This document shows, piece after piece, positions 3-5,346 of a stretch of DNA of 64,000 nt (position 1 is the stretch's first letter; every line of letters starts with the position of its first letter). The translations under genes and the position numbers were made by a program. A model generated the notes under the pieces. It searched no databases, was not told the DNA's origin, and worked only from the letters and a program-made list of their open reading frames with translations. The stretch is from Prochlorococcus sp. AG-402-P18 (lineage in GTDB: Bacteria > Cyanobacteriota > Cyanobacteriia > PCC-6307 > Cyanobiaceae), in the NCBI GenBank assembly GCA_003216275.1, contig QCJC01000002.1, positions 1 to 64,000 of the forward strand, written 5' to 3'.

Positions 3-206
3 GTAAGTCTTTTTCTGGCAGCTTTGATGATAATTTTAGGTAATCTTATGGCTGAATCTAGTCTTGTTCTTTCTAACTTATTTAATCAAATAGGAAGTCT
101 TAATCTTCTGATAGGATTATTTAATTTACTTCCTATTATTCCGCTTGATGGAGGTGTAATATTAAAATCTTTGATATGGCATTTTACAGGCAAAAGAAAT
201 TGCTAG
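3..206 (+). pseudogene. M50 (site-2-type) membrane metalloprotease, C-terminal fragment with aberrant end
   Basis: The frame is already open at the left edge of the window. It encodes a hydrophobic segment, then NLLPIIPLDGG, the second conserved site of M50 intramembrane proteases, whose Asp helps bind the catalytic zinc. The family continues well past this motif, with another membrane helix and often CBS domains. Here the frame reads only about 13 more residues and stops at 204-206. At the same place a different frame begins to read TrpF, which suggests that the protease tail was removed by a deletion or a misjoin. The upstream HExxH half lies outside the window. The family call is firm; the reason for the truncation is inferred. 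Confidence 0.72.
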
Positions 207-795
207 ATTAAAAATAAATGCTATTGGTGTAATTGGAGTTAGAAATTCTCCTCGCTTTGTCCCTAAAGAAAAATGTATCCAAATCTTTAATGAAGTAGAA
301 AGAATCTCTTCAAATATTGAAAGAGTACTTGTGCTTGCAAATGAAAAGATTGAAGCAATAAAATATATAAATAATGAGTCAACTCCACCAACTGTAATAC
401 AGCTACATGGAGATGAATCAGTTAATTATTGTAATCAGTTAAAGAATGAATTACCAGACATAAATTTATGGAAGGCCTTTAGATTAAAATCTATGATAGA
501 TCTGGAAAATACCCAAAAGTATGAGAAAGACATTGACGCTATTCTTCTAGATGCATGGGATCATCAATCTTTAGGAGGGACTGGTAAAAGGATACCTACA
601 AAATTACTAATTAATAAAACATTTAAGACCCCTTGGATCTTGGCTGGTGGAATATCTGCTGAAATAATTCCTGAAATTTTCTCAAGAATTAAACCCGATG
701 GAATTGATGCTTCAAGTCTGCTAGAGACATCTCCTGGTATAAAAGATCTTGAGAAAGTTAAATCTCTTGTGCATGCAATTAGAGAAGTTGATTAA
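187..795 (+). pseudogene. trpF: Phosphoribosylanthranilate isomerase, missing its N-terminus
   Basis: TrpF catalyses the third step of tryptophan synthesis from anthranilate (Amadori isomerisation). From about 187 the frame reads QAKEIARL, then GVRNSPRFV, QLHGDE, LLDAWD (the catalytic acid Asp), GGTGK and LAGGIS, all in family order. No ATG, GTG or TTG precedes this in frame before the stop at 172-174. The usual start with the KICG motif, whose Cys is the catalytic base, is absent. The first possible start is a GTG at 331, which would also lose the first beta-alpha units. About a dozen residues are missing, at the same point where the M50 frame loses its tail. As it stands the gene should be inactive, unless the junction is an assembly error. 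Confidence 0.78.
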
Positions 796-4548: not shown

Positions 4549-5346
4549 TTAACTGGGGGAAACAGGTTTTCCTGACTTAATTGGAGGCCAGTCACTGGCC
4601 AAAAGGCTCATAAATAGGGACTTCCAATGATTAATTAGAGCATTTTCTAAAGCGTCACCCAATTCAGAATTTGATGAACTTGCATCACCAATTACTCCTG
4701 TCGAGCTCAAATCCTCAGTCAACCATGCACACGGTGAGGAACCTTCAAGACTCCAACCTTTTGGAGTTCTAACTATCTCTTCATTAGGATCTTTTTTTTC
4801 TAAGTATGAATCATTTCGAACCAGATCTTTAGACATGTGCAACATAAGACTTGTTTCAGCCAATGCAGCGTGCAGCCCTTCCTCAACTTCCTTTTCAGGC
4901 AAAAGGTCATCTAATTCAGGAACACCACTCCAAATAAAACATGGAAGTACAGCGAGAGAAGGACATTGAATTCTCAATTGTCTTGAGACAGCTTGAAGTA
5001 AGCCTATTTGTCCACCATGGGCATTAAAAAAAATTAATCTTTTAAACCCCATAGAAGCTATCTGTTCGCCAACATCTGTCACCAATGAAATTAAAACTTT
5101 TGCAGATAAAGATAAGGTTCCTGGAAAAGCTTGATGCTCAGGAGAAAAGCCAATTGATTGAGAGGGCATCATCCATATAGGCATTTCCTCTGGCAAACAT
5201 TCAAGTGTCTTAATCAGAATATTTTCAGCAAAAAAAGTATCAGTAATTAAAGGTAAATGAGGACCATGCTGTTCACATGCACCAAAAGGCCAAACCAGCG
5301 TAGATCCCTTTTCAGAAGCCGCTTTAGCGGCTTCTGGCCAGGTCAA
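4549..5346 (-). CDS. Creatininase-family amidohydrolase
   Basis: Creatininase-fold metal-dependent hydrolase of 265 residues from the TTG at 5346. WPFGACEQHGPHLPL carries the first metal ligands (Glu and His), followed by DTFF (Asp) and FNAHGGQ (His); a late Glu lies in HAALAETS. Substrate unknown: relatives include creatininase, a riboflavin-pathway formamide hydrolase and mycofactocin MftE. The start is uncertain. The frame stays open upstream to 5387 and encodes plausible extra residues (FPTRRFEN), and an AGGAG lies at 5383-5387 with only ATT/ATC codons at proper spacing. The gene is divergent from the S1-like gene. Confidence 0.85.
   Translation of the reverse strand: MTWPEAAKAASEKGSTLVWPFGACEQHGPHLPLITDTFFAENILIKTLECLPEEMPIWMMPSQSIGFSPEHQAFPGTLSLSAKVLISLVTDVGEQIASMGFKRLIFFNAHGGQIGLLQAVSRQLRIQCPSLAVLPCFIWSGVPELDDLLPEKEVEEGLHAALAETSLMLHMSKDLVRNDSYLEKKDPNEEIVRTPKGWSLEGSSPCAWLTEDLSSTGVIGDASSSNSELGDALENALINHWKSLFMSLLASDWPPIKSGKPVSPS

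Follow-up and report, generated by a model that had tools for sequence, protein, structure and literature searches.

At the start of one contig in the Prochlorococcus sp. AG-402-P18 assembly, a fragment of an M50 metalloprotease gene runs into trpF, the gene for phosphoribosylanthranilate isomerase, and both genes appear damaged at a single point. This damage to a protease gene and a tryptophan gene is almost certainly an artefact of DNA amplification or assembly. The junction exists in the assembled sequence, yet it shows no real gene loss. The join is very probably an inverted (fold-back) chimera that formed during single-cell whole-genome amplification and was kept by the assembler at the contig end. 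As biology, the trpF/M50 junction is probably of no importance.

The trpF/M50 junction and its orientation

The window analysed here is the first 64,000 bases of contig C2, which is 226,413 bp long; the features at its start are listed in Table 1. The M50 frame is open from position 3 to 206 and keeps its NLLPIIPLDGG motif intact. In a Pfam search, the fragment corresponds to positions 156-200 of the 221 in the Peptidase_M50 profile, and by protein comparison it covers approximately residues 109-178 of a relative's protein. Its identity to the M50 gene of relatives, which is divergent from trpF there, is 66-78%. The frame is without a start because the contig begins inside the M50 gene, which is cut twice, by the end of C2 and by the junction. 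The trpF frame is also without a start and without the KICG motif. It matches the PRAI profile with an E-value of 2.5e-26 at profile positions 13-192, and its identity to relatives is 62-75% over 199-202 amino acids.

The switch from one gene to the other was placed by a per-base comparison with 28 relatives. The switch is sharp: the sequence agrees well with the M50 strand as far as position 190, where this agreement collapses, and agreement with the trpF strand starts at 187-192 and is high thereafter. An M50 fragment and a start-less trpF meeting at ~187-197, as given in the preliminary description, are borne out by the reading frames, the Pfam matches and this comparison. The two sides share a complementarity of ~6 nt, CAGGCA, the length of which is estimated from relatives because the genome's own parental M50 sequence lies in an assembly gap. 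In one relative (L018), CAGGCA is present on both parental strands at the corresponding point. The 10-mer CAGGCAAAAG was considered as a functional repeat and rejected: two copies occur in the window against 0.22 expected, and the second, at 4896, is unlinked to the junction. An Rfam search of the window returned two tRNAs only, both far from the junction.

Table 1. Features at the start of contig C2 (positions in the window)
Feature	Position	Strand	Basis or remark
End of contig C2	1..1		borders the ~7.9 kb assembly gap
Probable chimeric tail, mid-M50 metalloprotease, ~codons 109-171 of 407	3..192	+	wrong strand relative to trpF; PF02163
Junction, shared sequence ~CAGGCA	187..192	+	per-base comparison with 28 relatives; L018
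trpF (phosphoribosylanthranilate isomerase), probable genuine chromosomal side, 5' end missing	187..795	+	PF00697; only trpF in the genome

Both genes were located in 28 genus relatives, and in every one of these trpF and M50 lie head-to-head on opposite strands, with the points that are joined in the window 658-663 bp apart. In the window, trpF and the M50 fragment are both on the plus strand, an arrangement found in none of the 28 relatives. Judged by this difference in strand, the join is of the inversion type and is not a deletion. The tail is 66-81% similar to the sequences of relatives, which is comparable to the values for trpF. Contamination was ruled out as its source, since the tail is as similar to genus relatives as trpF is, and the tail is therefore native DNA of this locus.

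The assembly gap beyond the junction

The AG-402-P18 assembly is 1.85 Mb in 35 contigs and is 96.9% complete. A search for a second trpF, proposed in the preliminary description, found none in the whole assembly, and further pieces of this M50 gene were likewise absent from it. The other M50 sequence in the assembly, on contig C15, is a different gene. The trpC and trpA products are both encoded in the genome.

The order of the complete relative G007, with gene names read from translations, is accA, SDR, trpF (minus), M50 (plus), lplA (minus), a 141-amino-acid ORF, POR, ChlL (minus), ChlN and ChlB, followed by a short ORF and then by genes of carbon fixation, rbcL among them. Placed on this genome, the end of C2 is equivalent to position 568,741 and the start of contig C1 to position 576,640. 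By this placement, C2 and C1 are chromosomal neighbours with ~7.9 kb unassembled between them and could be scaffolded. The gap would hold the rest of the M50 gene, lplA, POR, ChlL, ChlN and ChlB. Neither lplA nor ChlL was found in the AG-402-P18 assembly. POR was not found there either, and only a short-chain dehydrogenase of 33% identity was returned in its place. A search that recovered the ChlN/ChlB family in Synechococcus elongatus, used as a control, found no such protein in the assembly. It is not credible that a phototroph has lost both routes of protochlorophyllide reduction, so the missing region reflects incomplete assembly and not a deletion. A second relative (G014, 90% complete) has no trpF match in its assembly, probably because of another gap at this locus.

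The preliminary description had drawn a need for external tryptophan and the loss of a protease from the truncated genes. Neither follows, because the missing parts of trpF and the M50 gene lie in the unassembled ~8 kb, together with POR, ChlL, ChlN and ChlB; trpC and trpA are retained.

A probable inverted amplification chimera and its precedents

Chimeric joins are a known product of multiple displacement amplification (MDA). Work by Lasken and Stockwell (2007, PMC1855051) on a single E. coli cell revealed that 85% of 475 chimeras joined their segments in inverted orientation with an intervening deletion, that 83% of the inversions connected sites less than 10 kb apart, and that chimeras arose at a rate of ~1 per 22 kb of amplified DNA. 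In 93.5% of the inversions spanning less than 10 kb, at least 2 and up to 21 complementary bases were present at the join (PMC1855051). The trpF/M50 join is like these chimeras (PMC1855051) in that it is inverted, has lost the bases between its two sides, connects sites less than 10 kb apart and has a shared sequence of a few nucleotides. Its second segment is inverted with respect to the genomic orientation in 28 of 28 relatives, the distance of 658-663 bp in relatives is well within 10 kb, and the ~6 nt of complementarity, estimated from relatives, lies within the 2-21 nt range. Its inversion, its short span and shared sequence, and its position at a contig end beside a gap match the dominant class of MDA chimeras. 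In contrast to the chimeras of that study (PMC1855051), the trpF/M50 join is known from an assembled contig alone, and the amplification history of the genome is inferred. The preliminary description had named a chimera as an alternative, and the contig end, the inversion, the distance and the gap all favour it.

The contig set and the relatives point to a single-cell amplified origin of the genome. At least three named single-cell assemblies are among the genus relatives. In the pipeline used for such single-cell genomes, 100 bp are cut off at both ends of each contig, and contigs of less than 2 kb are removed (PMC5519541; also PMC6122165). The smallest contig of AG-402-P18 is 2,047 bp, which fits a cut-off of >2,000 bp and is no proof of single-cell origin.

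The join would then have arisen in vitro. On the chromosome itself, the minus-strand trpF and the plus-strand M50 gene would lie head-to-head. As phi29 polymerase copied through either gene, the 3' end of the growing strand would be displaced, anneal through the ~6 nt CAGGCA to a strand of opposite polarity ~0.66 kb away, and be extended there. This would fuse the middle of the M50 gene to trpF at codon ~14, inverting one partner and losing the intervening bases. Because the region beyond was not recovered, the assembler would have had nothing but chimeric reads to extend into, and the contig would end in a tail of ~190 bp.

A direct precedent comes from an independent single-cell assembly, that of Prochlorococcus sp. 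AG-363-A03 (G033), in which contig 6 (QCEW01000006.1) passes ChlN and ends in a 179-bp inverted piece of trpF. This tail is 95% identical to the genome's own trpF, which is intact ~6.5 kb inside the same contig, and it is an independent example of this chimera class at the same locus. The inverted trpF copy behind ChlN, the last 179 bases of L117 (G033:C6:49741-59639), is plainly recognisable as a fold-back chimera in a publicly available single-cell assembly. Both C2 and contig 6 have an inverted tail of ~180-190 bp at a contig end, copied from a source at most a few kb away. They differ in that the intact original in AG-363-A03 is on the same contig, which makes the artefact self-evident, whereas the original of the C2 tail lies in the gap.

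Alternative explanations and other contig ends

A true chromosomal inversion of ~0.66 kb, with breakpoints at trpF codon ~14 and M50 codon ~171 in inverted copies of CAGGCA, would inactivate both genes and would give exactly the single junction that is present. Inversions inside cells can also proceed through short inverted matches. However, no such arrangement occurs in the 28 relatives, and two conserved genes would be lost to the inversion in a genome that retains trpC and trpA. Only one junction is assembled. The reciprocal one would fall in the gap just past the contig end and is absent from the assembly; C2 stops ~190 bp past the first, beside the ~8 kb gap. The high base rate of amplification artefacts further disfavours a true inversion, which is quite improbable. 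It is slightly less probable again that such an inversion disabled trpF and the M50 gene at once and left the cell reliant on an outside supply of tryptophan or of an intermediate.

A pure k-mer misjoin by the assembler, formed without any amplified chimeric molecule, would suit a contig end beside a gap. SPAdes assembly k-mers are far longer than ~6 nt, however, and a shared stretch of that length would not suffice. The join therefore calls for a chimeric read or read pair, and a misjoin of this kind is very unlikely. The deletion put forward in the preliminary description, a loss of the M50 tail and the trpF start by recombination at short direct matches, would explain why both genes break off at a single point and share a few bases there, but a direct-repeat deletion keeps the relative orientation of its flanks and cannot bring genes that are divergent in 28 of 28 relatives onto one strand unless one of them had been inverted beforehand, which makes it scarcely worth entertaining.

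The probable amplification chimera carries a caution for other genomes of this type. In contigs from amplified single cells, the terminal 100-300 bases can be fold-back copies of neighbouring sequence, and such contig ends can pass for gene fusions, truncations and auxotrophies. They are quickly exposed by comparing gene orientation with that of relatives and by finding the contig that resumes across the gap. In AG-402-P18, a scan of the 20 kb nearest the contig ends gave no other convincing inverted tail whose original is still present; tails copied from gaps, such as the trpF/M50 tail, would escape it. The scan gave small palindromes and direct repeats only. On a 4.8 kb contig (L102), positions 1-211 of G000:C28 are repeated directly at 2586-2794 with 89.6% identity, which may be a gene duplicate or an end artefact. 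A 168-base direct repeat (90%) in overlapping register lies at the start of contig C15 (G000:C15:88-357; L134), and it is probably a short tandem array at which the assembly broke off.
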